Virus record (IMG/VR): IMGVR_UViG_3300020109_000061
Coordinates: 1 to 37,017 of that record
Length of the DNA stretch: 37,017 nt
Source: a virus
Strand: one strand, 5' to 3'
The notes under the pieces: generated by a model
What the model was told of the DNA's origin: nothing
Seen by the model: only the letters and a program-made list of their open reading frames with translations
The model's database searches: none
In this document: piece after piece, positions 155-36,915 of the stretch
How the letters are laid out: every line of letters starts with the position of its first letter
Numbering within the stretch: position 1 is the first letter of the stretch
Made by a program: the position numbers and the translations under genes

Positions 155-171
155 GCAAAACCACACAACAG

Positions 172-185
172 TTGACACCGTTCAA
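172..185 (+). promoter_or_regulatory. Dispersed motif copy 1, upstream of terL
   Basis: TTGACACCGTTCAA lies 27 bases before the terL start. With flanks (164-190) it matches 24 of 27 positions of 8143-8169. The ends form a TTGA-N6-TCAA palindrome, while the CACCGT centre is asymmetric. The copy in front of cyAbrB has the same core. It may be a phage RNA polymerase promoter or a cyAbrB operator. TTGACA resembles a sigma-70 -35 box, but no -10 box lies at the right distance. Confidence 0.55.
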
Positions 186-188
186 TAA

Positions 189-211
189 CCTCGGGAGACC
201 GGGGCTTTTTT
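189..211 (+). terminator. Terminator-like hairpin abutting the terL start
   Basis: CCTCGG (189-194) pairs with CCGGGG (199-204, one T-G wobble) around GAGA, followed by C and six T (206-211). Only one base separates the T-run from the assigned ATG at 213. It could terminate transcription entering from the left, act as a 5' stabilising stem on terL mRNA, or attenuate terL. Two other genes in this window, the capsid-distal HeH gene and the endolysin, have the same arrangement. Confidence 0.65.
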
Positions 212-2651: not shown

Positions 2652-2672
2652 AGAGCTACCCTCGGGATGTAC

Positions 2673-2686
2673 TTGACACCATTCAA
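2673..2686 (+). promoter_or_regulatory. Dispersed motif copy 2, in the divergent terS/virion-gene junction
   Basis: TTGACACCATTCAA, one mismatch from copy 1, sits between the minus-strand TerS-like start (2651) and a plus-strand ATG at 2690. With one more base on each side it is CTTGA-N6-TCAAG, a perfect 5-bp inverted repeat. Its position between divergent operons is what a bidirectional operator or promoter would occupy. Confidence 0.6.
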
Positions 2687-2689
2687 GCA

Positions 2690-5807: not shown

Positions 5808-8779
5808 TGCCAGCTCGTTACGACGCCACTACCGGTCGCTGGGTCTATGACGATCCGCTGCAGCCGGTTGCTTCTGCCAACGCACTACCTGCGGTGGGTA
5901 CTGACCCGCTCGAGCAGAGCAAGTTCTTTGATCGCCGTGATGCCCAGATGGGCATGCAAGCGGGCGAGGCACTGACCAATCAGAACGCTGAGAAGCGTCC
6001 TCTGTTTGCCGAGAATCCCATTGGGGAGGCGTTCAACATCGCCGCCAATGCCGGCACCGCCCTGGTGACGGATTACCTGGACCTTGCTGCTGGTCTTGGC
6101 GACCTTGCGGTGCAGTCACAGGAGTACGTGGCGGGCAAGGGGTTCAAGCTCGACCAGGTGATGGACGACAGCGATAACCCTTGGACGAAGTGGCGTCGCA
6201 CGACGTTTGAGCCACAGAGCCAAGCCGGTCAGCTGGTCAGCAACGTGGTGCGTGTTGGCGTGAGCCTGCTGACTCTGCCCAAGGTGGCAGCCAAGGGCGT
6301 GGTGCTGCCGCTCAAGGCGGCATCTCGTGTGCCTGTTGTCGGTCGCGGTGCGTCAGCTGCGCTCGGTGGCATCGACAAGGTGAGCAAGGCGTACAAGGGC
6401 CTGACTGCTGTTGATGGCACTGCTGACACGCTCGGAGCGCTGCAGTCGCTCCGGCGCACAGTCCCCAGCGCATCGAAGGACGCCAAGCTGCTCGATGACG
6501 TGATGCGTCACGACTGGCTGCTGGCCACCTACGACGACGTGGGCCGTGCCATCGCTGGCGGCAAGGCCGAGCTCACGGGTGTCGCTAACTGGTTCGACAA
6601 CGTGAAGAAGAGCACGGCTGCACTGACGCAGCTGGGCAAGGTGAGCACGGGGCAGAAGATCAAGACGCTTGGTGAGGCCCTGGCCTGGGATGCCTTCGTC
6701 GCGTTCAACGTCTACGGCGAAGGCGACGCCGAGATGGACGAGACGTTCTCGGACTTCCTGGCGACGTTCGATAACCCGTTGGCGCAAGCGATCGGCTCGC
6801 CGCTGGCGACCGTGGCGGAGGACAACGCGCTGACGCGGAAGTTCAAGCAGATGATCGAGGGCATTGCGATGGCGGCCCCGCTTAACGCTGCCTTTGATAT
6901 GTACAGGGTGTACAGATATGCGAAGGAGTTCAAGGCCGGCAGCGCCAACGTCAAAGCGGAGATGCTCCGCCGGCTCGGTGGTTCTTCGCAGGAGATTGGC
7001 GACAGCATTGGCCGCACTGCTTTCCCGATGCTGCCACCTGGCCGTCTGACGACGGACGAGCTGTTTGACACGCTGAACTTCCAGCGGTCGGTGGCTGATC
7101 AGCAGGCGGGTTTGACGCAGGGCCAGGCCGATCTGCAGCAGTTCATGGACAACCGCATGCAGCAGCAGGCTGCAGCGATGGAGGCTGCACAGGCCGCGGG
7201 CATGCCTTCGCCTGTGGCTGGCATGACGCAGGGGGCCTTTGACGAGGCGGCCATGCGTGCAGCTGGTGGACGCACGCTGACCGGTGCACCGGAGCCCATG
7301 GCACTGCCGGGCACCGGTTTACAGACGCCGCAGCTTGGCGCTGCAGAGGGGCAGGTGGGCCAGCCCGGCGCAACTCCTGCAGGCCTGCTTGGTGCCGGTG
7401 GTGGCCTGCCGGCTCCGGTGACCCCAGGGATGGTGCCCGTCACGGTGCGTGACCTCGGCTCCGCGGTGCCGCGGCCACCGGAGCCTGTCGTCACGCCGCA
7501 GACAATCCGCAGCGGCTTTGCGCAGGACGCGATGCGCGTGATCCGTCAGATGGAGGAGCTCACCTTTGTCGAAGGTGCTGACGGTGTGTTCACGCGCATG
7601 TCGAACAGCATCAAGCAGCTCGTGCCGCGGACCCGTGTTGATGCGTTGGAGTATCTGCGGAGCTTCCCGCCTCAGCTCAATGAGATGGGGATGCCCAATG
7701 GCGTGGATGCTATCTGGACCAATTTCATCTACGACCGTGGCCTGCAGGAGGGGTGGGCCAGCATTGATCCAGATACGTTCCAGATCCGGTTCAACCGTGC
7801 TGCAGCGGCTGAGTTTGACCGCTCCACTGCAGTGCTTAAGCAGGTCGAGGCAATCGACCAGGTGGATGAGCTGACTCAGTTCAACACTGAGCTGGTGGAC
7901 GTTGCTGAGAGCTTCAAGGCTGCGCAGCAGGAGCAGCCGATTGATGTGGATGTGCAGCAGAGCGCACGCCTAGCGGAGATGGAGCAGGACCCTGCGATCC
8001 GTCTTGCTGCTGAGGAAGCCGCGGCCGCTGCTGATGAGGTGGACCGTCTCGATGCAGCAGAGGAGTTACGGCTGACAGAGGCGGAGCTGATGCAGGTGGC
8101 TGGGCAGATGACGGATGAACAGGTCGTTCGTGAAATGCTGGGCACAACACTTGACACCGTTCAACCACCTGACGTCATACGTGCAGAGATTGGACGTGGC
8201 TGGGAAGTGTATGACTCCACTGGTGAGTTGATTGGCAAGACGACCACACAGAAGGCAGCACGCAAGCTTGCCGATCAGCAGCTGCGCAAAGACCGCGATG
8301 CACTGTTGGCTCGTGCTCGTCAGATGGAGGCTGACGCAATGGACGAAGCGATCAATGTGCAGGTCGGTGTGCCTGTCTTCGATTCCGACATTGTGGGCAA
8401 GATCAAGCTGACCGATGCACAGATCAGCGCAGTGCAGGGCATCTTGCCGCAGCTTGACGGTTTGCTTGATGACGCCTGGCTCAAGCGTCGTGGTGAGACC
8501 GCGTTCTTCAACATCAATGAGCTTGGCCCGCAGAAGCGGACCTTTGAACTCACCCAGGGCGACATGAAAGCGTTGGGTGAGGGTATCCAGCGGGTGTTGC
8601 AAGACGCTGGCGACTTGAAGGGCAGCCCCAAGCTGCGTGCATTGCGCAATCTGGCCGACAAGCTAGATACGCAAATGAAGCTTCTTGCTCCAGAAGCAAG
8701 AGCCAAGAAACTCGTCGATGACCTCACGCGAGAAGCGATGAGCTTTATCGATGACGGCAAACTCTGCGATTACCTCTGA
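5807..8779 (+). CDS. Internal virion protein, 990 aa
   Basis: This is the second large protein of the internal-core set, coupled at both ends by TGATG overlaps. It has an N-terminal half with hydrophobic or amphipathic stretches (about residues 80-110 and 145-180), a Gln/Ala/Gly/Pro-rich low-complexity middle (about 430-560) and a helical C-terminal third rich in acidic residues (EMEQDPAIRLAAEEAAAAAD). No catalytic motif is recognised. By position it corresponds to part of T7 gp15 or gp16, which form the ejection conduit. The motif TTGACACCGTTCAA is embedded in its coding sequence at 8151. It may have been a single polypeptide with the following gene in an ancestor (inference). Confidence 0.7.
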   Translation: MPARYDATTGRWVYDDPLQPVASANALPAVGTDPLEQSKFFDRRDAQMGMQAGEALTNQNAEKRPLFAENPIGEAFNIAANAGTALVTDYLDLAAGLGDLAVQSQEYVAGKGFKLDQVMDDSDNPWTKWRRTTFEPQSQAGQLVSNVVRVGVSLLTLPKVAAKGVVLPLKAASRVPVVGRGASAALGGIDKVSKAYKGLTAVDGTADTLGALQSLRRTVPSASKDAKLLDDVMRHDWLLATYDDVGRAIAGGKAELTGVANWFDNVKKSTAALTQLGKVSTGQKIKTLGEALAWDAFVAFNVYGEGDAEMDETFSDFLATFDNPLAQAIGSPLATVAEDNALTRKFKQMIEGIAMAAPLNAAFDMYRVYRYAKEFKAGSANVKAEMLRRLGGSSQEIGDSIGRTAFPMLPPGRLTTDELFDTLNFQRSVADQQAGLTQGQADLQQFMDNRMQQQAAAMEAAQAAGMPSPVAGMTQGAFDEAAMRAAGGRTLTGAPEPMALPGTGLQTPQLGAAEGQVGQPGATPAGLLGAGGGLPAPVTPGMVPVTVRDLGSAVPRPPEPVVTPQTIRSGFAQDAMRVIRQMEELTFVEGADGVFTRMSNSIKQLVPRTRVDALEYLRSFPPQLNEMGMPNGVDAIWTNFIYDRGLQEGWASIDPDTFQIRFNRAAAAEFDRSTAVLKQVEAIDQVDELTQFNTELVDVAESFKAAQQEQPIDVDVQQSARLAEMEQDPAIRLAAEEAAAAADEVDRLDAAEELRLTEAELMQVAGQMTDEQVVREMLGTTLDTVQPPDVIRAEIGRGWEVYDSTGELIGKTTTQKAARKLADQQLRKDRDALLARARQMEADAMDEAINVQVGVPVFDSDIVGKIKLTDAQISAVQGILPQLDGLLDDAWLKRRGETAFFNINELGPQKRTFELTQGDMKALGEGIQRVLQDAGDLKGSPKLRALRNLADKLDTQMKLLAPEARAKKLVDDLTREAMSFIDDGKLCDYL
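8151..8164 (+). promoter_or_regulatory. Dispersed motif copy 3, inside the 990-aa virion gene
   Basis: TTGACACCGTTCAA is identical to copy 1, and the similarity extends to 24 of 27 bases between 8143-8169 and 164-190. Here it encodes L-D-T-V-Q within an ORF, so either it is an internal promoter or operator about 600 bases before the next gene, or it is a coincidence of coding sequence. The flanking identity argues against chance. Confidence 0.45.
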
Positions 8780-16976: not shown

Positions 16977-17334
16977 TCATCTTGGTCTGGTGGTTGGGGT
17001 CGCTCTCGTCCAGGTGGCACTCGGGGCCGAACCCTGTGGCCAGCAGCTCTTGTAAAAGGTTGGGCGACGTTTGTTCAATAGGCGCCTCTCTTGTTAAAGG
17101 TTCGGCCTTTTTGCTGACACGTTCCTGGTCAGCAGCCTCAAGCGAAGCGATCCAGCTGTCGTAGGCCTCACGGGAGGGGATCTTGGCAGGAAGCTTCAGC
17201 CACTTCCGTGCTTCCTTAGGGCAGCGGAAGAACATGCTGGCTCTGCTGGTGCAGGCGATGTAGTACCGCCCGTTCCAGTCAACGCCTGTCTCCACGCTGG
17301 TGTAGACGCTGAGGTGCAGTCGTTCTCGCTTCAT
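16969..17334 (-). CDS. Hypothetical protein, 121 aa, downstream of endolysin
   Basis: The ATG overlaps the endolysin stop (ATGA at 17331-17334), so translation is probably coupled. The N-terminal half looks folded (MKRERLHLSVYTSVETG, DWNGRYYIACTSRASMFFRC, then PKEARKWLKLP) and the C-terminal half is polar and acidic. No family is recognised. A longer reading of the same frame (to 17520) overlaps the endolysin coding region and is unlikely. Coupling suggests a role in lysis or late functions, which is inference. Confidence 0.6.
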   Translation of the reverse strand: MKRERLHLSVYTSVETGVDWNGRYYIACTSRASMFFRCPKEARKWLKLPAKIPSREAYDSWIASLEAADQERVSKKAEPLTREAPIEQTSPNLLQELLATGFGPECHLDESDPNHQTKMIT

Positions 17335-18452
17335 GGCTTGCAGGTGAGATACCAGCCGCCAGAGCCACCAGGCATCCAGCGTGGGTTCCAGTTCTTGCGG
17401 CTGTAGGCAATGCCAGCTCCCTTGCTGGTGTTGAGGTAGCCGCCGCCAACCAAAGAGGCCTCGCCATTGGGATCGTTGTGGATCCAGGCAATGTCGGTGT
17501 AGCCGATAATCACTGACCAATGGCCGCTGCCACTGGGGGATGACACAGGCCCCTTGTGCAGCCAGCCCACTGCAACGGGCCGGCCCGCATCAATCTCTTG
17601 CTCCAGCAGCCGTGGGTTGCCATCGGTGTGGAAGTCAGCCCGCAGGCCAAGCGAGCGCAGCGCTGCCAACTGTGCCTGGGCGCTGGTGGTGTCTCCGAAC
17701 TTGGCCCGGATCGCGTTGTAGGCGTCATCGCCCACGACCTTGCCCCAGAACATGGCGAGCATGGCGCAGCTGGAGGAGAAGCACTCGCGGTAGCCGGTGC
17801 CGCTCTTGTTGTCGTTCTGGCTCTGCCAGCGCACGTTCAGCGGATTGCGTGGCAATGCCTCCCCTTGCACCGGACGCTCCTGGTTCATCAGAGCGATCAG
17901 GCGATCGGCATACACGGGCAGGGTTGCGTACCCCTGGCGCTGCAGATCCTTTGCTGCCTCGTTGCGGTTGGACGCGTGGTTGACGCCTTTGTGTTGTTTC
18001 CAGTCGAGGTACCACCGCTTGACCAGATACTTCACTGCCGCGTCAAAGGACGGGAAGTCGATGAACGAGTCCTGGATCGTGATGGTCTTGCCGTTCACCA
18101 CCTCCTGGGTTTGCTTGCTGGTGCCAGGCCCCTTCAGTCCGAATGGGTTCTTTCGGCCAGACATGTGCTTGCCACGGCCTGACTCGAGGGCCCACTGAGC
18201 AGCGACAAGTTCTGGATACTTGGCGCCGTGCTTCTTCGCCGCGCCTTCAATCCCAGCCCAGGTGTTTTCAATGTCTGCCGGGCTGCGCCATTCCTCAACC
18301 CAGTCGGCGTTTTCTGCCAGCAGGCACGGATCTGCTTGCTTGATTTGCCAGCCGAGTTTGACAACGGCACGCATCTGGTGCTCGAGGCCCTCGTAGTTGT
18401 CCCAGAACTCCAGCCAGCGCTGGTCAGTGAATTGGACGTCTTTGATCGTCAT
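17331..18452 (-). CDS. Bifunctional endolysin: glucosaminidase-like plus C39-like peptidase domain (373 aa)
   Basis: The first domain (about residues 60-190) has the FlgJ/GH73-type pattern GAKYPELVAAQWALESGRG, with candidate catalytic Glu90, followed by GRKNPFGLKG. The second (about 200-373) has a papain-like C39-type layout: WQSQNDNKSGTGYRECFSSS with candidate Cys224, then GHWSVIIGY with His311 and WIHNDPNG with Asp327. A glycan-cleaving plus peptide-cleaving pair suits a lysis enzyme, and it is coded apart from the virion lysozyme-like domain. The ATG at 18452 is preferred over the in-frame TTG two codons upstream. There is no Shine-Dalgarno; instead a terminator hairpin with a short T-run ends just upstream, and a 25-aa ORF runs through it and stops at the ATG. 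Confidence 0.8.
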   Translation of the reverse strand: MTIKDVQFTDQRWLEFWDNYEGLEHQMRAVVKLGWQIKQADPCLLAENADWVEEWRSPADIENTWAGIEGAAKKHGAKYPELVAAQWALESGRGKHMSGRKNPFGLKGPGTSKQTQEVVNGKTITIQDSFIDFPSFDAAVKYLVKRWYLDWKQHKGVNHASNRNEAAKDLQRQGYATLPVYADRLIALMNQERPVQGEALPRNPLNVRWQSQNDNKSGTGYRECFSSSCAMLAMFWGKVVGDDAYNAIRAKFGDTTSAQAQLAALRSLGLRADFHTDGNPRLLEQEIDAGRPVAVGWLHKGPVSSPSGSGHWSVIIGYTDIAWIHNDPNGEASLVGGGYLNTSKGAGIAYSRKNWNPRWMPGGSGGWYLTCKP

Positions 18453-18529
18453 CAGCAAAAGAGGGGGTGTGACCCCCTCCGGTAGACCTCGGCTTTCACC
18501 GATTCAAGGCTAAAAAGCTGTTGACGCAT
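18452..18529 (-). CDS. Possible 25-aa leader peptide through the endolysin terminator
   Basis: An ATG at 18529 opens a 25-codon ORF (MRQQLFSLESVKAEVYRRGS plus HPLFC) that passes through the whole terminator hairpin. Its TGA overlaps the endolysin ATG (TGATG). Translation would melt the hairpin and deliver ribosomes to the endolysin start, so the arrangement could couple translation to read-through. No good ribosome site precedes it, so it may be chance. Confidence 0.3.
   Translation of the reverse strand: MRQQLFSLESVKAEVYRRGSHPLFC
18457..18479 (-). terminator. Intrinsic terminator between cyAbrB and endolysin
   Basis: On the minus strand GAGGGGGT (18479-18472) pairs perfectly with ACCCCCTC (18468-18461) around a CAC loop and is followed by TTTT (18460-18457), then four bases to the endolysin ATG. 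The T-run is short but the stem is very strong. It should reduce transcription from cyAbrB into the endolysin. Confidence 0.7.
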
Positions 18530-18543
18530 GGCAAGTGCCAAGG

Positions 18544-18930
18544 TCAAGCTGCCACCTTTTCTTCTCCTTTGTCGTTGGCGTCTTCTTTGACCAGAACGAT
18601 GCAGTCGCCATCAATCTCGACGTTCACGTAGTCCCCGTGGTTCAGGCCGATCTGTGTGGTGTAGGCCCGGCTGACGGGGATCAAGCCCTTGGGTCCCACC
18701 TTGAGGCGGTAGGTGGGCTCCTTGCCCAGCCCTTCAGGCATGTTCACGGTGAAGGAGCCAAGGTCATAGCCGTTCGCTTGGCTGAAGGCAGCGAAGAACT
18801 TTGACTTCTGCAGCGTGCGCCGACCACCGCGGCTGGCAGTGTAGCCAGCACCTTCAATAAGAGTTTCCAGCTCCACACCCTCATTTGCCTTGAGGTAGTT
18901 GAGCAGCTCTTCGCCTTGGAGACGTGCCAT
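18544..18930 (-). CDS. cyAbrB-type transcription regulator (128 aa)
   Basis: The protein matches the layout of the cyanobacterial AbrB family. A conserved N-terminal region (MARLQGEELLNYLKANEG, then GYTASRGGRRTLQKSKF and FFAAFSQANG) precedes a C-terminal AbrB/SpoVT-like swapped-hairpin DNA-binding region at about 78-117 (KGLIPVSRAYTTQIGLNHGD, YVNVEIDGDCIVLVKED). In cyanobacteria, cyAbrB proteins are global regulators of carbon and nitrogen metabolism and other genes. Here it sits between the gp14-like virion gene and the endolysin, with a strong palindrome immediately upstream and a terminator downstream, so it looks like its own regulatory unit. It may be captured from a host. A role in lysogeny control or in manipulating host expression is inference. 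Confidence 0.85.
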   Translation of the reverse strand: MARLQGEELLNYLKANEGVELETLIEGAGYTASRGGRRTLQKSKFFAAFSQANGYDLGSFTVNMPEGLGKEPTYRLKVGPKGLIPVSRAYTTQIGLNHGDYVNVEIDGDCIVLVKEDANDKGEEKVAA

Positions 18931-18935
18931 GTGAC

Positions 18936-18961
18936 ATACACTTGTACGGTGTCAAGTGTAT
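18936..18961. promoter_or_regulatory. Perfect 9+9 bp palindrome directly upstream of cyAbrB (candidate operator)
   Basis: ATACACTTG (18936-18944) and CAAGTGTAT (18953-18961) are exact inverted repeats separated by eight bases, five bases before the cyAbrB ATG. The minus-strand core TTGACACCGTACAA (18955-18942) differs at one base from motif copies 1 and 3. Position and symmetry fit an autoregulatory operator. A phage promoter containing a symmetric element is the main alternative. Confidence 0.75.
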
Positions 18962-18962
18962 A

Positions 18963-20114
18963 TCAATAGAAGCTGAGCTGACCAGCCTTGTTCATGTAGC
19001 TGAAGTTCATTGCACCTTGCACGCCGCCCAAGATGGCATTGCCAATCGTGAAGCCCAAGTTGCCAGTTGACGGCTGTGTTGGCCCGATGTACTCAGGCTT
19101 CAGTCCCTTGATCGGCTTGAGCGGATCGAAGTAGATCTCTTCGCGGTACGGCTTGCTCAGGCTGATCACAGAGCTGGTGTAGTCAGCCTGTGCAGATGCA
19201 AGCTGCGCCCCGTAGGTCTGTGCACGCCAGCCGAACGACGGGATCGTCAGCTTCGACATGGTTTGATTCAGCATCGACGCTTCGTTGTTGCTGCGCTTGA
19301 TCGTGGCTGCAGCACGCTCCGTCATGTCCTGCATGCCCAGTGCGTAGCGCCCCAGTTGTTGGGCGTACTCACCCTTGATCGTGCTGTTCAGCAGGCCCAG
19401 GCGCACCTTGCGTGAGGTGGCATTCACCTCCAGCTCGCCCCAGCGCTGGCCGAGCTGCTTGGCAGCTTGCATCATCAGCAGCTTGCCGGTCTGTCCTCCG
19501 CCCTGGCGGTCAGCACCACGAGCACCCGATTTACTGTCCTCCACCAGGGCGGCAATCTTGTTCAGCTGCCAGCCCAGGTAGTCACGCTGCTCCTCCAGCG
19601 CAAGGCTTTGCACCAGTTCCTCGGTGTCCTTGTTGAGCTTGCTGGTGGTCTGTGCGCTCTCGAGTGCCGTCTGGTTGACCTGGTTCAGGTATTGCCTGGT
19701 GGTCTCCAGCGTGTCGATCGCCAGGGCCTGCATGCGGTACGGGTAGTCGACCGATGCCTTGGCGAACTCCGTGTTCTGCTCCAGGGCAGCGCGGCTGGTG
19801 ATCTCTCCGATCCGAGAGCTCAGCTGCTGCGATGCGGCGCCCAGCATCTGCGACTGGTTCGCCTTGTAGTCCGATGCCTTTTGCCGCTCGTTGAAGCGCA
19901 GCTGCTCGACACGGGCTTTGTCCCACCACCACTGCGTCTTGGCCGCCAAGTTGGCCAGGCGATATTCCTGCTTGTCCCGCCTGAAGCGGGCCTTGGCTTG
20001 CTTCTCAGCGGCCTTGTACTGCGCATCGGCTTGGCTCTTTGCCGAGGCCGCACCAAAGATTGAGGAGCCGATCCCGGCGACAGCTCCAATGACGGCGCCA
20101 ATAGGAAATGCCAT
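18963..20114 (-). CDS. Internal virion protein, T7 gp14-like position (383 aa)
   Basis: The gene follows tail tube B with a TGATG overlap, the place of T7 internal virion protein gp14. The N terminus has a Gly/Ala-rich hydrophobic segment (GAVIGAVAGIGSSIFGAA) followed by a long helical, Lys/Gln-rich body (AKSQADAQYKAAEKQAKARF), as in gp14-type proteins that insert in the outer membrane during ejection. T7 gp14 is only 196 aa, so this one is longer. A second hydrophobic stretch is near the C terminus (GFTIGNAILGGVQGAM). It is the last structural gene on the minus strand before cyAbrB; its stop nearly touches the palindrome upstream of cyAbrB. Confidence 0.7.
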   Translation of the reverse strand: MAFPIGAVIGAVAGIGSSIFGAASAKSQADAQYKAAEKQAKARFRRDKQEYRLANLAAKTQWWWDKARVEQLRFNERQKASDYKANQSQMLGAASQQLSSRIGEITSRAALEQNTEFAKASVDYPYRMQALAIDTLETTRQYLNQVNQTALESAQTTSKLNKDTEELVQSLALEEQRDYLGWQLNKIAALVEDSKSGARGADRQGGGQTGKLLMMQAAKQLGQRWGELEVNATSRKVRLGLLNSTIKGEYAQQLGRYALGMQDMTERAAATIKRSNNEASMLNQTMSKLTIPSFGWRAQTYGAQLASAQADYTSSVISLSKPYREEIYFDPLKPIKGLKPEYIGPTQPSTGNLGFTIGNAILGGVQGAMNFSYMNKAGQLSFY

Positions 20115-28308: not shown

Positions 28309-28483
28309 TGATCAACCCCCTGAGGAAACGAATGACTGATCTCTGTCCAGAAGCGTACCGAACCTGATCTATTGAGTCAGTCAGCTCCGGAGTCTTTTCT
28401 GGAAACAACTGATCTAGTGCGTCCAACAGCTCATCTGTCATCTGCTGGCCGATGATTCTCTTTAGCGCGTCGGGGGATTCCAT
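28301..28483 (-). CDS. Small conserved-type protein, 60 aa
   Basis: The protein is acidic and helical, with MTDELLDALDQLFPEKTPEL followed by QVRYASGQRSVIRFLRGL. A helix with a YxxGQRSV motif recurs in short proteins of this kind coded near exonuclease and portal genes of T7-like phages. The function is unknown. The start overlaps the exonuclease 3' end by 22 bases and its TAA overlaps the next gene by 8 bases, so it is embedded in the early-to-late junction. Confidence 0.65.
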   Translation of the reverse strand: MESPDALKRIIGQQMTDELLDALDQLFPEKTPELTDSIDQVRYASGQRSVIRFLRGLING

Positions 28484-29244
28484 AGCTTGACCTCGTGTGT
28501 TGTGAAGTTGTAGTCGCCGTAACGCAGGATCCTTACCAGTCTCGCCTGTCGTAGTGCGTATTCATGTGCGTCGTATAGATCAACGTTCTTCTTCCTCTGT
28601 GCCTCCTCATACGTCCGAACAATCGTTTCCCAGCAATCCACAGGTTGTGAGAGGTCGAGCTTCTGGACGATTCGCTCCGCCGTGACGGCACCCACACCCG
28701 GACATCCAGGGACGCCATCGGTTGCGTCTCCAACCAGGTATTGCTGGTACGTGAATCGTTCTGCATCTTCAGGTGTCACCTCGTATGGTTCATTGTCAAT
28801 CCAGACGTGTATGCCTGGGATCTGCTTGAGATCTTTGTCTAGCGTTGCGATGACAACGCCTTCCTCTTTCAGGTCAGGCATCGTGGCGAAGATCCCAAGC
28901 AAGTCATCGGCCTCGATCTGCCTGTGAAGCCAGGCGCCGCTTCCCTCAAGGAACTGGTTCTTCAACGCCTTGAACCCAATCGGCTTTGGCTTGCTCTTGC
29001 GGTTGGCCTTGTAGCTCGGATCCACTTCCTTCCGGAATGTGCTGCGGTCCGTAAAGCAATGCAGCAGATCGTCGAGCTTGCACTCGAAGAGATCGCACCA
29101 CGCTTCGCACTGCTCCCAGTACATCTCCCTGGCATGGGGCAGTTCGCTGTGCCGGGTCCACACCTCAGCCTCTAGTTCAATCTCTACTTCCGTCGCGCTC
29201 ATTGCGCGGAACAGAAGCATGTCGGAATCGATTGCGATCTTCAT
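28462..29244 (-). CDS. 5'-3' exonuclease (T7 gp6-like FEN/PIN family), 260 aa
   Basis: The FEN pattern is visible: MKIAIDSDMLLFRA with the first metal-binding Asp, then FTDRSTFRKEVDPSYKANRK, QIEADDLLGIF with Glu and two Asp, ATLDKDLKQI, and a helix-hairpin-helix-like GDATDGVPGCPGVGAVTAER. T7 gp6 is about 300 aa and degrades host DNA and removes RNA primers. The ATG overlaps the zinc-ribbon gene's stop (ATGA). In T7 the DNA polymerase gene sits between primase-helicase and gp6; here small genes take that place. Confidence 0.92.
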   Translation of the reverse strand: MKIAIDSDMLLFRAMSATEVEIELEAEVWTRHSELPHAREMYWEQCEAWCDLFECKLDDLLHCFTDRSTFRKEVDPSYKANRKSKPKPIGFKALKNQFLEGSGAWLHRQIEADDLLGIFATMPDLKEEGVVIATLDKDLKQIPGIHVWIDNEPYEVTPEDAERFTYQQYLVGDATDGVPGCPGVGAVTAERIVQKLDLSQPVDCWETIVRTYEEAQRKKNVDLYDAHEYALRQARLVRILRYGDYNFTTHEVKLWNPPTR

Positions 29245-29537
29245 GCTGCTTGTACTGACTTGGGCTTTGCTGACAGGGGCTCAGACATGTGGCCCTTGAA
29301 CTTGGTGGGCAGGTCCTTGACGACCTTGGGGATCGTGCTTTTACCGCCCTTGCCTGAGCTCCACTTCACGTCAACGACCGTCTCGTGAAACTGTTTGGTG
29401 TAGAAGCGATGGCCGCAGTATTCGCAGTGGCGGCGACGCACCACGTGTTGGCATTCATCGTCGAACTTGGTCAGGATCACCTTTGTGATCCACGCCCCGC
29501 AGCCTGGGCAGTCGGGCGTCATTTGATTAAGTGGCAT
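29241..29537 (-). CDS. Zinc-ribbon protein (98 aa)
   Basis: The product begins MPLNQMTPDCPGCGAW and has a second knuckle HCEYCGHRFYTKQ, giving two CxxC pairs about 22 residues apart, a zinc-ribbon arrangement resembling the N-terminal module of NrdR-like regulators. It lacks the ATP-cone domain of NrdR. The C-terminal half is basic (KWSSGKGGKSTIPKVVKDLP). A nucleic-acid-binding or transcription-modifying role is plausible. The frame is open upstream to 29633, but that overlaps the preceding 58-aa gene, so the ATG at 29537 is chosen. It ends overlapping the exonuclease start. Confidence 0.65.
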   Translation of the reverse strand: MPLNQMTPDCPGCGAWITKVILTKFDDECQHVVRRRHCEYCGHRFYTKQFHETVVDVKWSSGKGGKSTIPKVVKDLPTKFKGHMSEPLSAKPKSVQAA

Positions 29538-29556
29538 CTCAGTCAGTGTTGTGGGT

Positions 29557-29733
29557 TTACTGTCCGTCCATTTCAAGGACGTGCTCGATGGCGCGGATGT
29601 AGCCATCCCACCAGATCTCAGCCTGGCTGCCACGGTTGTCGTTGATCTGCTTGCGTGCGGCGACCAGCAAGCTGATCACAGATGCACGTGTGACGTCGAT
29701 CGGTTTCTCTGTTGCTGTGGTTGTGTCAGTCAT
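29557..29733 (-). CDS. Small protein, 58 aa, unknown function
   Basis: The ATG overlaps the stop of the upstream 62-aa gene (ATGA at 29730-29733). The product is MTDTTTATEKPIDVTRASVI followed by a helical stretch with LLVAARKQINDN and QAEIWWDGYIRAIEHVLEM. No family is recognised. It is one of six small coupled genes occupying the usual DNA polymerase slot. Confidence 0.6.
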   Translation of the reverse strand: MTDTTTATEKPIDVTRASVISLLVAARKQINDNRGSQAEIWWDGYIRAIEHVLEMDGQ

Positions 29734-29918
29734 TCGTTGTCAAGGAGTTGTAGTTGTTGCCAAAACTCACTGTCGTCAGGCACGCCCTTGCTCTGAAACC
29801 ATTCACTCAGTTCCTCCAGCGTGTAGAAGGTTTGGCACGCGCCATCGGCATAGCCGACATACAGATGCTCGAACCCGTCGCGTTCAATGCACTCCACTAG
29901 CAGCTCATGCTTACTCAT
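29730..29918 (-). CDS. Small acidic protein, 62 aa, unknown function
   Basis: The product starts MSKHELLVECIERDGFEHLY, continues GACQTFYTLEELSEWFQSKG and ends acidic. The ATG overlaps the stop of the upstream gene by 8 bases and the TGA overlaps the next ATG. The longer frame upstream duplicates the 68-aa gene's region and is unlikely. It may form a small alpha/beta fold. No function is assigned. Confidence 0.6.
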   Translation of the reverse strand: MSKHELLVECIERDGFEHLYVGYADGACQTFYTLEELSEWFQSKGVPDDSEFWQQLQLLDNE

Positions 29919-30117
29919 CGCTAATTCTTCGTAGCATGTCAGCAATCTCCATACATTGAAGGTGGCATATCTTGGCGACCGTCTTTGACGGCGCCATCGC
30001 TTCCACTTCCTGCGCAACCAGAGACAGCACACGCCGCATCCGATCAGCAGCATCAAGGGTGTGATCATTGAACTCAGCCCCCCAATAGGCCCTTGTGCAT
30101 TTCTCGATGAACCTCAT
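29911..30117 (-). CDS. Small helical protein, 68 aa, unknown function
   Basis: The product is MRFIEKCTRAYWGAEFNDHT, then LDAADRMRRVLSLVAQEVEA and ICHLQCMEIADMLRRISDE, mostly amphipathic helix. The ATG overlaps the previous gene's stop (ATGA at 30114-30117). No family is recognised. It belongs to the coupled early small-gene cluster. Confidence 0.6.
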   Translation of the reverse strand: MRFIEKCTRAYWGAEFNDHTLDAADRMRRVLSLVAQEVEAMAPSKTVAKICHLQCMEIADMLRRISDE

Positions 30118-30296
30118 GAAAAGTCCTCCAGCTTTTCGAGCACAGCTTTGATGGCACAGCCGTAACCGTTCCAAAAGCCAAGCGAAAAGTCGCTGTCGCT
30201 GTGGTTGAACTTGTGAATAGCGATCTGGTGTAGCTCAGTCAGATACGTGACGCTGATGCTGCGGTGTCCAGTGGCGTTCAGCTCTTCATCAGTCAG
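30114..30296 (-). CDS. Small protein, about 60 aa, with non-standard start
   Basis: The C-terminal part is clearly protein-like (VTYLTELHQIAIHKFNHSDS, then DFSLGFWNGYGCAIKAVLEK) and its TGA overlaps the next ATG. The frame has no ATG, GTG or TTG before it enters the previous gene. The nearest candidate is a CTG at 30296 overlapping that gene's TGA (CTGA); the next ATG, at 30464, would overlap the previous gene by 170 bases. Translation may depend on re-initiation or a rare start codon. Function unknown. Confidence 0.5.
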   Translation of the reverse strand: MTDEELNATGHRSISVTYLTELHQIAIHKFNHSDSDFSLGFWNGYGCAIKAVLEKLEDFS

Positions 30297-30556
30297 AAGC
30301 CCACCCCGCTCTGGCCAGGGGTCGGGACAGCCTTGCCCACGTAGTCCACAGCTTTCGCCTCCGGATACTTGCGTCTCGCAAATGCCAGAGCTGTCTGATG
30401 TGACGGGGCTCTGATTACCTCCTTCATTGGGGGTGTCTTGTCGAATCGGACAATGATCTTCCATAGCGGGTGCTTGGGGTTATCGGAAAAAGTGATGCCT
30501 CTGTTGATTGGGTTGTAGCCCTCGTTGCTGATGATTTCAGTACGTGTTGATTTCAT
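30293..30556 (-). CDS. Hypothetical protein, 87 aa
   Basis: The product begins MKSTRTEIISNEGYNPINRG and contains HPLWKIIVRFDKTPPMKEV and SHQTALAFARRKYPEAKAVD, which suggests a small alpha/beta fold. The ATG lies inside the 3' end of the primase-helicase gene (20-base overlap). It is the first gene in the slot where gp5 DNA polymerase would be expected, but it has no polymerase motif and is far too short. Function unknown. Confidence 0.65.
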   Translation of the reverse strand: MKSTRTEIISNEGYNPINRGITFSDNPKHPLWKIIVRFDKTPPMKEVIRAPSHQTALAFARRKYPEAKAVDYVGKAVPTPGQSGVGF

Positions 30557-33197: not shown

Positions 33198-33294
33198 GAG
33201 TTAGTTGAGTTGCGTGGATGTGCCGGGCTTATGGGTCATGCAGCTGACTGCTGCGCTGCCGGCTGACAGATGATAGTGAGACTGTTGCCACGTG

Positions 33295-35691
33295 TCAACC
33301 AAAGAGAAAAGGGTTTTCTCCGATCTCGTTCCGGTCCAGGTCGCCAACGCAAGGTGGTGCAGGGGCTTTGGCCTGCGTCAGTGCCGCCACGTACCCCTGC
33401 AGAAAGGTCAGGTAGTCCACGCTGTAGAAGCGGTGCCACTGGTCGTTGAGCTCGCAACGCATCGTCTCTGCCTTATCCACAGTCGTGCCAAAGCAGTCGT
33501 GCACAGTGCTGATGGGGTAGCCGTAGCCGTGCCAGTGGTTCACGAACTTCCGTAGGAACGCACCGTCTTGGCTGTGTACAAAGTGAGCCGCAATTCCCTT
33601 GGCTGATCGCTTCTTGTCGATCGGCGCACCCTCGTTCGTTCTTGCCTGCACTCTCACTGTCCTGTTCGTCAGCACCATCCGCACTTCGTCTTCGCTTGTC
33701 ACGCTGTGATACACCTCCACCAGCAGACCGTCTGGTGTGTACCAGTGGGGCCTGTAGCCAGCATCCATTTGCAGCTTTGCCAGGTGAACGAGCCATCGCT
33801 GCAGCTGGAGCACACCAGGCATCACCTCTTTGCTGACGGCATAGGCCTCAGCGGCCAGCACTTTGGCCAGCTCGATAATCCGCAGCCCCTCCGGTGTCAG
33901 GAAGTTGGCCAGCTCATCACGCAGGTAGTTCGTGATCGTCTCCTGCATGTTCACGAACGTGCTGCCATACACGAGTGGCATGAACACCTGCTTCCACAGC
34001 TTTCGTGTGGGCTTGAAGTCCAGCCACCACTGCAGGATCTGCTGCCGCTTGGGGTCTTCCTCGTCACGCAGCAGCGCCCTGAGCCTGGCCTCTGTGACCT
34101 TGCCGGCCCCGGCGTACAGATCAGCCGGCGCCTTGCCGATGACGTTGGTGAACTTGGCCAGCTGCCGGTCCAGCATCAAGCAGGCGGCGTGCCCGTAGCC
34201 GCTGCTGGTCTGGTCCAGCCAGTGGATGGTGCCCGTGGTGTAGCCCGGATCATCCATGTACTGGGCCCAGTCACGGCACAGCTGGATGAACCGCCACGGT
34301 TCCTTGTGGCCGGCCCAGAAGGCGACGTTGCTTAGCGGATCCAGGCCCACGTCACGGATCACCGTGCTGTGCTCGAGCAGGTAGCGCTTTCGCACCTCCT
34401 GATCAGGTGGCAGTGCCATGGCCTCACCAAGAGACCAGGCAAACGAGTGCTCATTGCCCTTCATCGGCCCCCGCTGAGCGAAGCGGAAGCTCGAGCGGTA
34501 CACGTCACCGCCCTGGATGTTGAGCTGCGACCCGCGGCTGTAGATCCTGCCCCGGTGGTCAAGATGGTGGACCAGATAAAGATTTGTGAAAGCCTTCACG
34601 CGTTCGTAGGCCACCAGCCCGTTCACAAACCGGCTGCGCTGCGGATCCTTCCGCTGGTCAGCCTTCCATTCCCAGTGCGCTCGCCAGTACGCCTCAGGTC
34701 CCAGCTTCTCCTGCTTGAAGCGTTTGTCTGACGGGCGCTGCATCCGCTCCCGCTTGGGCAGGTCTCCCACCCCATGCCCCAGCTCCCAGCAGCTGCGTTG
34801 CAGATCGATCTGTGCGTGATCCAGCCGGTAGGCCTGCGACTGCAGGATGTTCAGCGCACCCAGCACGCTGGGCTTGGCCTTGCGGAACTGCCGCTCGAAC
34901 AGCAGCGGATCCACGGTGCTCACCGGCATGCGGATCGTCTCGTACCCACCGTCCAGGGCGTCGGTGTAGGGCCGCGGCGGGGACACCATCGGCATGTGGA
35001 GCGGGCGGAACATCACCACGTGGTCCTTCCACCGCCTCAGGAACTCCCAGTACATGGGCGTGAACCGCACGGTCTTGCATCGCTTCTTGCCGGTGCCGGA
35101 CACCTGCAGCTCGATCAGACGAGTGCACTGCGCAATGCACTCCACGAAGAAAGCGCCCAGGGCGATGCGTTCAACGTGGCTGAGCTCCTTGTACAGGGCT
35201 GCCTTGTGAAAGCCCTTGTCCTTCAGGCGCTTCAGCAGCAGGTTCATCCCCATGTCGCCGTTGCTGGCCAGGCGCAGCCCCTTCAGATGCCAGCTGTGCT
35301 TCCACACCGGATGCGTCAGCCACAGGGTGTACTCAGCACGCTTCCCAAGCTGGCTGCAGACCTGGTTGTACGAACGCTCGTCATGCAGGTTGCCCAGGAT
35401 CCAGAACAGCGATTCCAGAGCCACCTGCACCACGGCCTTCTCGTCGTGCATCAGCTCCCAGATCAGGGCCTGCCGGCCTGGCTGATGCTTTGAACGCCGA
35501 TAGGTTTCGATTACTTGCTTGAGGTATTCGCGGGCAAGACGGCTGCCGAGTGTTCCGGCTGCTCCTTTCTCCCATTTGCCCGCAAGTATTCGCCCTGCAC
35601 CTGTGGATTTAGACCACGATTCGAGCTCGGTTTGCTCCTGGTAGGCGTTGCGATCGAGTTGCTTGCCACCGTTTAACGGTTGACCTGTCAT
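33295..35691 (-). CDS. Single-subunit DNA-directed RNA polymerase (T7 gp1-like), 798 aa
   Basis: T7-type motifs are in order: DHRGRIYSRGSQLNIQGG from about residue 378, the palm Asp493 in WLDQTSSGYGH (motif A), FKPTRKLWKQVFMPLVYGS at about 558-577 (motif B, with the Lys and Tyr of the O-helix), and HDCFGT with Asp732 (motif C). T7 RNAP is 883 aa; the N-terminal promoter-binding region here is shorter. It should transcribe phage middle and late genes from phage-specific promoters. The 5' end carries ACCGTTAAACGGT, a perfect inverted repeat inside codons 5-9. It lies downstream of the integrase and att-like site on the same strand. Confidence 0.95.
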   Translation of the reverse strand: MTGQPLNGGKQLDRNAYQEQTELESWSKSTGAGRILAGKWEKGAAGTLGSRLAREYLKQVIETYRRSKHQPGRQALIWELMHDEKAVVQVALESLFWILGNLHDERSYNQVCSQLGKRAEYTLWLTHPVWKHSWHLKGLRLASNGDMGMNLLLKRLKDKGFHKAALYKELSHVERIALGAFFVECIAQCTRLIELQVSGTGKKRCKTVRFTPMYWEFLRRWKDHVVMFRPLHMPMVSPPRPYTDALDGGYETIRMPVSTVDPLLFERQFRKAKPSVLGALNILQSQAYRLDHAQIDLQRSCWELGHGVGDLPKRERMQRPSDKRFKQEKLGPEAYWRAHWEWKADQRKDPQRSRFVNGLVAYERVKAFTNLYLVHHLDHRGRIYSRGSQLNIQGGDVYRSSFRFAQRGPMKGNEHSFAWSLGEAMALPPDQEVRKRYLLEHSTVIRDVGLDPLSNVAFWAGHKEPWRFIQLCRDWAQYMDDPGYTTGTIHWLDQTSSGYGHAACLMLDRQLAKFTNVIGKAPADLYAGAGKVTEARLRALLRDEEDPKRQQILQWWLDFKPTRKLWKQVFMPLVYGSTFVNMQETITNYLRDELANFLTPEGLRIIELAKVLAAEAYAVSKEVMPGVLQLQRWLVHLAKLQMDAGYRPHWYTPDGLLVEVYHSVTSEDEVRMVLTNRTVRVQARTNEGAPIDKKRSAKGIAAHFVHSQDGAFLRKFVNHWHGYGYPISTVHDCFGTTVDKAETMRCELNDQWHRFYSVDYLTFLQGYVAALTQAKAPAPPCVGDLDRNEIGENPFLFG

Positions 35692-35713
35692 TCTCAGGGA
35701 TCTCAGTGAGGAT

Positions 35714-35847
35714 CCCAGTGGTGGCCCGGTAGTTGACTCGTGGCAATCTTATCCACGATTTTGAGTCGAGTCCGTCTACCAATTCCGGCACGCTCCCACT
35801 GGGTTTTGGGCGATTTTGTTGCGCATGGTAGTTGCGCTGCCCGCAAC
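35714..35847. repeat. Inverted repeats around the att-like site
   Basis: CCCAGTGG (35714-35721) and CCACTGGG (35796-35803) are exact inverted repeats flanking the tRNA-like segment. GTTGCG (35831-35836) and CGCAAC (35842-35847) form a second hairpin between it and the integrase stop, and GTTGCGC also occurs as a direct repeat at 35818-35824 and 35831-35837. These could be integrase arm sites or transcript-end structures. Confidence 0.5.
35756..35797 (-). other. tRNA-Leu(CAA) 5'-half, candidate phage attachment site (attP core)
   Basis: Read on the minus strand, 35797-35756 has a tRNA-Leu 5' acceptor strand (GGGAGCG), TG, a D-arm CCG-GAATTGGTAGA-CGG, and an anticodon arm CTCGA-CTCAAAA-TCG with anticodon CAA. 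After these 42 bases the pairing fails and no T-arm or matching acceptor strand follows, so it is not a working tRNA. Cyanopodovirus P-SSP7 is known to carry a tRNA-Leu match beside its integrase. The anticodon stem-loop is a classic tyrosine-integrase crossover site. It lies in the gap between int and RNAP. Confidence 0.75.
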
Positions 35848-35861
35848 TCAGTCTCACACGC

Positions 35862-35875
35862 TGGACACCGTTTAA
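35862..35875 (+). promoter_or_regulatory. Dispersed motif, weak copy over the integrase stop
   Basis: TGGACACCGTTTAA matches 12 of 14 bases of copy 1 and covers the TAA of int. A related sequence, CCACCGTTTAACGG, lies at 35668-35681 in the first codons of RNAP. The match is weak enough to arise by chance; it is listed because both lie around the int-att-RNAP junction. Confidence 0.3.
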
Positions 35876-36915
35876 CAGTCCACGAGCTCCTCCAGTGCAA
35901 TAGCTGAGTGGTGAACGTACCGCTGCGTGACTTGCAGCGATTTGTGGCCGCCCCACTGTTGGATAGCGCTGGCGTTCCACCCCTTCCTCGCCAGGTTGGT
36001 TAGGCAGGTGTGGCGCAACGTGTGGATGCACCATTCCTTGCGGATCGATGGACTCAGCCCCATGCGATCGCACACCTCGTGCACAGCCTCGCCGTAGTGG
36101 CTGAGGTAGGACTTGTAACTGAGCGGAAAGACTCGCTGCGGGTCCTGTCCACGGAGCTGACGCATAAGCGCCTGCACTGGCCGCGGCATGGGCAGACGAC
36201 GGGGCATGCAGCCCTTGGTTTTCACAAAGCTGATCGTCTTCTGCTCGAGGTTGACTCGATCCCACAGCAGGCCCTCCTTGTCGCCACGGGTGAGGGCCTC
36301 ACCCACACGGCAGCCCATGTGCCACAGGAACAGAGTGACGGCCACATCGAGGCGCTGCTCGCGCTTCTCCATCACATCAAGCAACTCGGCCAGCCACTCC
36401 TCCGGCAGCACCAGGTCACGAGGCTCAGCCTCCTTGAGCAGCCGGCGCTCCGGGAACAAGGGCACCGCGTTGATCATGCCCAGCCGGTGAGCACGCTTCA
36501 GCAGCACGCTCAGGGCTGACAGGTAGCGGTTGATCGAGGCATTGCTGCAGCCGTGGCCGTTTGGCCCGGTGTTGCGCAGCCAGATCACCAGGTCGTCGAT
36601 CGCACGAGCATCGATCTCGCATGGCAGGGCAGTGATACCGAAGTGCAGGCGGATCAGCCGTTCTGCGGCCTCAGCCTGGCCCTGGTGCTTGCCGGCCCAG
36701 TCAAGGCCACGCGCCACACGCAACAGATCGCCCATTGTGCCCTTGGGTGCAGCCTCAAGGCGCTCTCGTTCTTCACGCTCCTCCTTCCCCCAGATGGCAA
36801 GCGTTGCTGCCTCCCACTGCTGTGCTTCCAGCTGGGTGTCAAAGGTCTTGGACTTACGTTGGCCTTTGTGTTCAGCAAACGCCTTCCACTTTGGTCCCGC
36901 TTGACGTACTGCCAC
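35872..36915 (-). CDS. int: Tyrosine-family site-specific integrase (347 aa)
   Basis: The catalytic set is complete: Arg203 in HMGCRVGEAL, a Lys in the beta-hairpin SFVKTKGCMPRRL, His298-x-x-Arg301 in IHTLRHTC, His324 in QQWGGHKSLQV and nucleophile Tyr333 in TQRYVHH. The N-terminal ~60 residues look like an arm-binding domain, followed by a core-binding helical domain (about 60-160). It would insert the phage into the host tRNA-Leu gene at the adjacent att-like site. The GTG start has GGAGG nine bases upstream. It overlaps the end of the upstream MarR-like gene by 44 bases, suggesting co-transcription with a regulator. Confidence 0.93.
   Translation of the reverse strand: MAVRQAGPKWKAFAEHKGQRKSKTFDTQLEAQQWEAATLAIWGKEEREERERLEAAPKGTMGDLLRVARGLDWAGKHQGQAEAAERLIRLHFGITALPCEIDARAIDDLVIWLRNTGPNGHGCSNASINRYLSALSVLLKRAHRLGMINAVPLFPERRLLKEAEPRDLVLPEEWLAELLDVMEKREQRLDVAVTLFLWHMGCRVGEALTRGDKEGLLWDRVNLEQKTISFVKTKGCMPRRLPMPRPVQALMRQLRGQDPQRVFPLSYKSYLSHYGEAVHEVCDRMGLSPSIRKEWCIHTLRHTCLTNLARKGWNASAIQQWGGHKSLQVTQRYVHHSAIALEELVDC

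Follow-up and report, generated by a model that had tools for sequence, protein, structure and literature searches.

Related regulators and phages

Proteins of the cyAbrB family (PF14250) are cyanobacterial global regulators, of which AbrB2 (Sll0822) of Synechocystis is an example. AbrB2 represses its own gene, which is driven from an extended -10 promoter with no -35, and glutathionylation of its single conserved cysteine relieves repression (PMC4264147). Although an integrase is present in many T7-like cyanophages, this group has yielded neither a lytic repressor homologue nor an isolated lysogen; S-TIP37 and P-SSP7 integrate at tRNA-Leu during lytic infection (PMC8776855). Temperate T7-like phages such as LUZ100, RHEph21 and TRX32-1 have a MarR-family gene beside the integrase. 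Transcription of the MarR-integrase operon occurs in LUZ100, and for integrase-bearing T7-like phages it is MarR that has been proposed to regulate lysogeny (PMC10134795).

The DNA analysed here is the 37,017-nt stretch of IMG/VR record IMGVR_UViG_3300020109_000061, referred to in its entirety as the window. It encodes a cyAbrB-family protein. A phage cyAbrB gene has previously been annotated, as an 'AbrB family transcriptional regulator', in the uncultured phage MedDCM-OCT-S39-C11 (AP013549, Krakvirus S39C11), which has a similar gene order and likewise carries MarR beside the integrase. The AbrB protein of AP013549 is 37% identical to that of the window, its own palindrome differs (GTTGACA-GT-TGTCAAC), and the operator is unannotated in the record. 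No cyAbrB was found by tblastn in the phage collection outside AP013549, including S-CBP3, S-TIP28, S-TIP37 and P-SSP7. Literature searches on AbrB or cyAbrB together with cyanophage or phage turned up, among the papers listed, none on a cyAbrB gene carried by a phage, and the clade-wide operator and site family described below appear unreported in the literature searched.

Genome organization and host

The phage is a T7-like (Autographiviridae) cyanophage with a tyrosine integrase; the earlier note on this DNA had likewise called it a T7-type phage with an integrase. The plus strand of the 37-kb record encodes the terminase, internal virion proteins and the tail fibre, while the minus strand encodes the integrase, T7-like RNA polymerase, SSB, endonuclease, primase-helicase and exonuclease and, further on, the connector, scaffold, capsid, tail proteins, AbrB and endolysin (Table 1). 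No DNA polymerase gene was recognised in the window (28309-30536), G001 or G004, where, unlike in S-TIP28, the gap between primase-helicase and exonuclease is too short; the window phage is apparently a T7-like phage without its own DNA polymerase. An Rfam search returned nothing. The tRNA-Leu attP is of the kind present in S-CBP3, S-TIP28, S-TIP37 and P-SSP7, and its core is identical to that of S-CBP3, a phage of Synechococcus CB0101, so that the host, judged from attP and cyAbrB, is most likely a picocyanobacterium. In two relatives (L118 and L120, genomes G008 and G009) the gap between integrase and RNA polymerase holds, in place of the tRNA-Leu fragment, a tRNA-like fragment with ACTCATAATCCG that looks like tRNA-Met, which suggests a different integration site.

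The window breaks off inside a MarR-family gene. It had been stated that no other full repressor was visible, but this was an artefact: the complete gene was missed because the contig ends within it. A full-length MarR gene is present in L107, a contig with the same RNA polymerase as the window (100% identity), and MarR adjoins the integrase in relatives whose contigs cover that region; S-CBP3 (contig L152) and S-TIP28 carry MarR as the cyAbrB clade does. The accompanying argument, that an integrase requires a repressor-like function, does not hold for T7-like cyanophages, which integrate without lysogeny (PMC8776855). In L120 (6041-7384; G009) MarR and integrase are fused in a single 448-aa ORF, with a MarR-like N-terminal part and a PF00589 C-terminal part.

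Table 1. Coordinates of genes, repeats and site-family members in the window
Feature	Position	Strand	Remarks
Site-family member GTTGACACCGTTCAAT	171..186	+	upstream of terminase gene
Site-family member CTTGACACCATTCAAG	2672..2687	+	after terminase gene; conserved in G001
Site-family member CTTGACACCGTTCAAC	8150..8165	+	inside virion-protein gene; may be coding constraint
Endolysin gene	17331..18458	-	downstream of cyAbrB
Terminator-like hairpin GGGGGTcacACCCCC + CTCTTTT	18462..18477	-	between AbrB and endolysin; conserved in L003-L005
cyAbrB-family gene, 128 aa, ATG start	18544..18930	-	PF14250 at residues 44-108; homologues at same place in 13 phage lineages
Extended repeat, 13+13, one mismatch	18932..18965	.	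from stop codon of upstream gene almost to AbrB ATG
Perfect 9-8-9 inverted repeat ATACACTTG-N8-CAAGTGTAT	18936..18961	-	conserved core TTG-N8-CAA at 18942-18955
-10-like box TATACA	18957..18962	-	abuts palindrome; putative promoter; TATACT or GATAAT in many relatives
Upstream gene, 383 aa, T7 gp14 position	18963..20114	-	no significant family match
Site-family member GTTGACACGTGGCAAC	33284..33299	-	at RNA polymerase stop codon; overlaps -35 of promoter before SSB/replication genes
T7-like RNA polymerase	33295..35691	-	
Site-family member CTTGCCACCGTTTAAC	35662..35677	+	just inside RNA polymerase start
TTG-N8-CAA site TTGCCACGAGTCAA	35733..35746	-	upstream of RNA polymerase; site here in all AbrB-bearing phages examined
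tRNA-Leu-like attP candidate, 43 nt	35756..35798	-	between integrase and RNA polymerase; identical in Synechococcus phage S-CBP3
Site-family member CTGGACACCGTTTAAC	35861..35876	+	integrase 3' end, upstream of RNA polymerase
Tyrosine integrase	35872..36915	-	
MarR-family gene, C-terminal 47 codons	36875..37015	-	cut by contig end; complete homologue in L107

The cyAbrB protein

The claim that a T7-like phage codes for a cyAbrB-family protein was confirmed: the window protein matches the Pfam AbrB-like family PF14250 with 39.7 bits (E 5.4e-10; curated cut-off 25), and it is encoded together with a T7-like RNA polymerase, terminase, connector and tail proteins. The cut-off is exceeded by the proteins of most relatives, those of L058 and L061 scoring below it. 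Like AbrB2, cyanobacterial cyAbrB proteins share the PF14250 domain with the phage proteins and align with them end to end, over both the N-terminal and the AbrB halves; most of the plasmid-borne homologues compared are 27-31% identical to the phage protein. A structure model (mean pLDDT 72.8) predicts helices in the N-terminal half and, in the C-terminal half, the beta-beta-alpha-beta-beta topology of AbrB. The best Foldseek matches to this model include AbrB and MazE, which are of the expected kind but not significant (E 0.39 or weaker), and comparison by sequence with solved structures gave nothing useful.

The phage version differs from its cyanobacterial counterparts in its phage setting, its sharp palindrome and the replacement of the host CGY cysteine, which is Ala or Ser in all 15 aligned phage proteins. 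Membership of the family stands despite this loss because the Pfam match is not defined by that cysteine. Since Ala or Ser occupies the position throughout, redox control via the CGY cysteine is excluded in the phage proteins. We infer that the CGY cysteine is the one glutathionylated in AbrB2; if so, this control is lost in the phage protein. In L139, a T7-like contig that has MarR but no full cyAbrB, a minus-strand ORF (offset 1309, 227 aa) joins the N-terminal half of a cyAbrB-like protein to an unrelated acidic C-terminal part. The terminator that had been placed downstream of cyAbrB corresponds to a terminator-like hairpin, which abuts the endolysin gene and is also kept by relatives.

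The palindrome upstream of cyAbrB

A perfect 9+9 bp inverted repeat five bases from the ATG had been described, and it is exact. The five bases are GTCAC, and the repeat fills most of the short intergenic gap. No -35 element lies at the right spacing from the -10-like box upstream of cyAbrB. The pattern ATACACTTG-N8-CAAGTGTAT has a single occurrence in the window, and 100 shuffles yielded none. Repeat length was rejected as evidence, with three perfect repeats of 9-bp arms and a spacer of at most 12 observed in the window and 3.0 expected.

Relatives were gathered by viral-contig scans with an AbrB alignment and the tail protein gp12, together with an iterated HMM. In all 13 assessable lineages of T7-like cyanophages, cyAbrB comes after the gene at the gp14 position, at AbrB identities down to approximately 30%; among clade contigs reaching well past the gp14-position gene, none without cyAbrB was seen. 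A palindrome precedes cyAbrB in all 13 lineages in one register, with TTG and CAA invariant in 13 of 13. Versions of this palindrome include ATACACTTGACACCGTACAAGTGTAT in the window, ATTGTTGACACTGATCAACAAT in L039, ATACTGTTGACATCTTTCAACAGTAT in L059 and L060, CTGTTGAGAGAACTCAACAG in L027, TGTTGACAGTTGTCAACA in most marine members, TGTTGACACCAATCAACA in L007 and ACTTGCATTAGTTCAAGT in L058, in addition to others. The pair flanking TTG/CAA is G-C in nine lineages, C-G in three and mismatched in one. Across the 13 lineages 72.6% of cells are paired in register, as against 21-40% when slid by one to three columns, and an arm-swap test on the two flanking pairs gave p 0.008; these lineage tests and comparisons are descriptive, the lineages sharing ancestry and not being phylogenetically independent. 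A chance palindrome was rejected, as 13 lineages keep TTG-N8-CAA in register. The palindrome is thus very probably a conserved operator with matched changes on both arms, as judged from these alignments.

The comparison proposed in the earlier note, of gp14-adjacent cyAbrB genes and their upstream palindromes across phages, accordingly found gene and palindrome kept together in 13 lineages. Its 26-bp site did not survive as the operator unit: in three relatives with approximately 90% AbrB identity (L003, L004 and L005) the right arm is broken, with CAAGCATTT replacing the CAAGTGTAT of the window. The exact 26-bp repeat was therefore rejected as the conserved unit, which is TTG-N8-CAA.

In a scan of cellular genome contigs one contig carried cyAbrB, a phage contig of the cyAbrB clade filed in a planctomycete MAG (L027, G007:C26; NHDG01000121.1) and bearing two MarR genes; no cyAbrB-bearing prophage in a cyanobacterium was found in that scan.

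Related sites across the phage genomes

Members of the site family GTTGMCACCRTTYAAC with at most three mismatches number 12 in the window (approximately 1.9 expected), 10 in G001 (1.8 expected) and 13 in G008 (1.0 expected), counts that are descriptive, with the consensus derived from these same phages. The conserved positions are before the MarR ATG, at the integrase end, at the RNA polymerase start and before the terminase. In the freshwater-type phages L107, G001, G013, L116, L110 and L112 a site lies 72 bp before the MarR ATG, and at the same spot G008 has a perfect 8-6-8 palindrome, ATAGTTGACTTCACTCAACTAT. Furthermore, most of the AbrB-bearing phages examined have TTG-N8-CAA between RNA polymerase and SSB. 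In the window a sigma70-type promoter, TTGACA-N17-TATCAT (33298-33270), precedes the SSB/replication genes, and its -35 is part of the site; a TTGACA-N16/17-TATCAT promoter underlies the SSB site in the window, G001, G008, G009, G013 and L110. Marine members have TTGCC-type sites at RNA polymerase and SSB and TTGAC-type sites at AbrB. Taken together, the TTG-N8-CAA sites probably constitute a phage-wide family.

Retention of the palindrome by homologous phages without cyAbrB had been named in advance as the result that would speak against a link between the two. Among 19 relatives lacking cyAbrB, some of them contigs with the same attP, TTG-N8-CAA was found within 250 nt upstream of RNA polymerase in one and shortly after RNA polymerase in two, both near the background rate, although these phages carry a diverged MarR, so that site presence and MarR type are confounded in the comparison. 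The RNA polymerase regions of RHEph21 and YIMV22061 also have no TTG-N8-CAA at the places where the clade has sites. The proposal of an autoregulated switch was upheld in part: the operator-like palindrome is conserved, but it is not private to AbrB, sites being present also at RNA polymerase, the replication-gene promoter and MarR.

Two further elements were observed near these sites. The terminase-upstream site is directly followed by a hairpin and T-run (window 171-210; CCTCGGGAGACCGGGGCTTTTTT). Just before the RNA polymerase ATG (window approximately 35690-35710, minus strand) lies CTGAGATCCCTGAGAATG, nearly identical in all AbrB-bearing phages, and most phages without AbrB have TCTCA-N4-TGAGA near attP in its place; CTGAGATCCCTGAGAATG is possibly the real MarR operator.

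Proposed regulation and alternative interpretations

According to the proposed mechanism, a symmetric cyAbrB oligomer would occupy the palindrome, immediately downstream of a promoter without a -35, and repress the cyAbrB gene in the manner of Synechocystis AbrB2. Acting at the sibling sites, it would keep both the host-driven replication promoter and the phage RNA polymerase in check and, with MarR, would restrain the lytic programme during an integrated or delayed state of the phage. The operator-like sites sit at genes that start this programme (RNA polymerase and the SSB promoter). We consider it nearly an even call that cyAbrB is a clade-defining regulator of T7-like picocyanobacterial phages, with an integrase wherever that region is covered, and represses via these sites. 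The fuller proposal, in which a host cyAbrB has been turned into a phage repressor that uses one palindromic operator family to control itself, RNA polymerase and the replication promoter, forming a lysis-delay or lysogeny switch, is more tentative.

That the sites are bound by cyAbrB rather than MarR has, on sequence grounds, slightly less than an even chance. In favour of cyAbrB as the binder, the site reaches its greatest regularity at the cyAbrB gene, where every lineage has it, and it tracks the presence of that gene. Counting against it, Synechocystis cyAbrB2 behaves like a nucleoid protein, with broad binding to AT-rich DNA (PMC11368403), and the phage site does not match the motif proposed for AbrB2, TT-N5-AAC (PMC4264147). 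MarR, moreover, occurs in the same phages, those of the freshwater type having the site in front of it, and sites flanking the RNA polymerase promoter have been put forward for MarR in integrase-bearing T7-like phages (PMC10134795). It is plausible, if on the doubtful side, that the sites are operators of the MarR-like regulator beside the integrase, which would control its own operon, RNA polymerase, the replication promoter and cyAbrB, the last as a regulon target acting on host genes. Operators of MarR-family proteins, such as that of MexR, are of the GTTGA/TCAAC type, a likeness that counts towards this reading, as do the presence of MarR in relatives whose contigs cover the integrase region, the -72 sites and the perfect palindrome of G008. 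However, the marine phages G004 and L115 carry MarR without a site upstream of it, MarR-bearing phages without AbrB largely lack the sites, and it is at cyAbrB rather than MarR that the site is most regular and universal. Because the TTGCC-type sites at RNA polymerase and SSB of marine members differ from the TTGAC-type sites at AbrB, two proteins may be at work.

Two further readings were disfavoured, and each is considered improbable. Sites of the TTGACACC type could be promoters of the phage RNA polymerase whose symmetry is incidental, given that the TTGACACC copies are mostly oriented with transcription and loosely resemble the Syn5 polymerase promoter ATTGGGCACCCGTAA (PMC3950665). Changes are nevertheless symmetric on both arms, copies near MarR and RNA polymerase are oriented the opposite way, and the copy before SSB coincides with the -35 of a sigma70-type promoter, where in the window CCGTT is lost and TTG-N8-CAA kept. 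Alternatively, the repeat could act in the mRNA as a hairpin lying between the stop codon of the upstream gene and the start codon of AbrB, for translational coupling or RNase processing. As RNA, the 13+13 repeat of the window would form a 13-bp hairpin (-16.7 kcal/mol, z -5.1); hairpins are strong also in L059, L039, L027 and L007, and the flanks outside the core are more complementary than permuted flanks (p 0.003). The hairpin signal is nonetheless absent in five lineages (L003, L043, L065, L058 and L061; z -0.3 to 0.6) that keep TTG-N8-CAA, and the sibling sites before SSB are mostly unfolded and lie on a -35 box, so that a hairpin is disfavoured as the conserved feature.

Significance

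With two candidate regulators and a defined set of operator-like sites at both polymerase and replication promoter, the cyAbrB clade makes the question of lysis and lysogeny in these phages testable. If the proposed role of cyAbrB is true, this would be a case of a phage having recruited a global regulator from cyanobacteria, and would provide a repressor switch in a phage group without a known repressor homologue.
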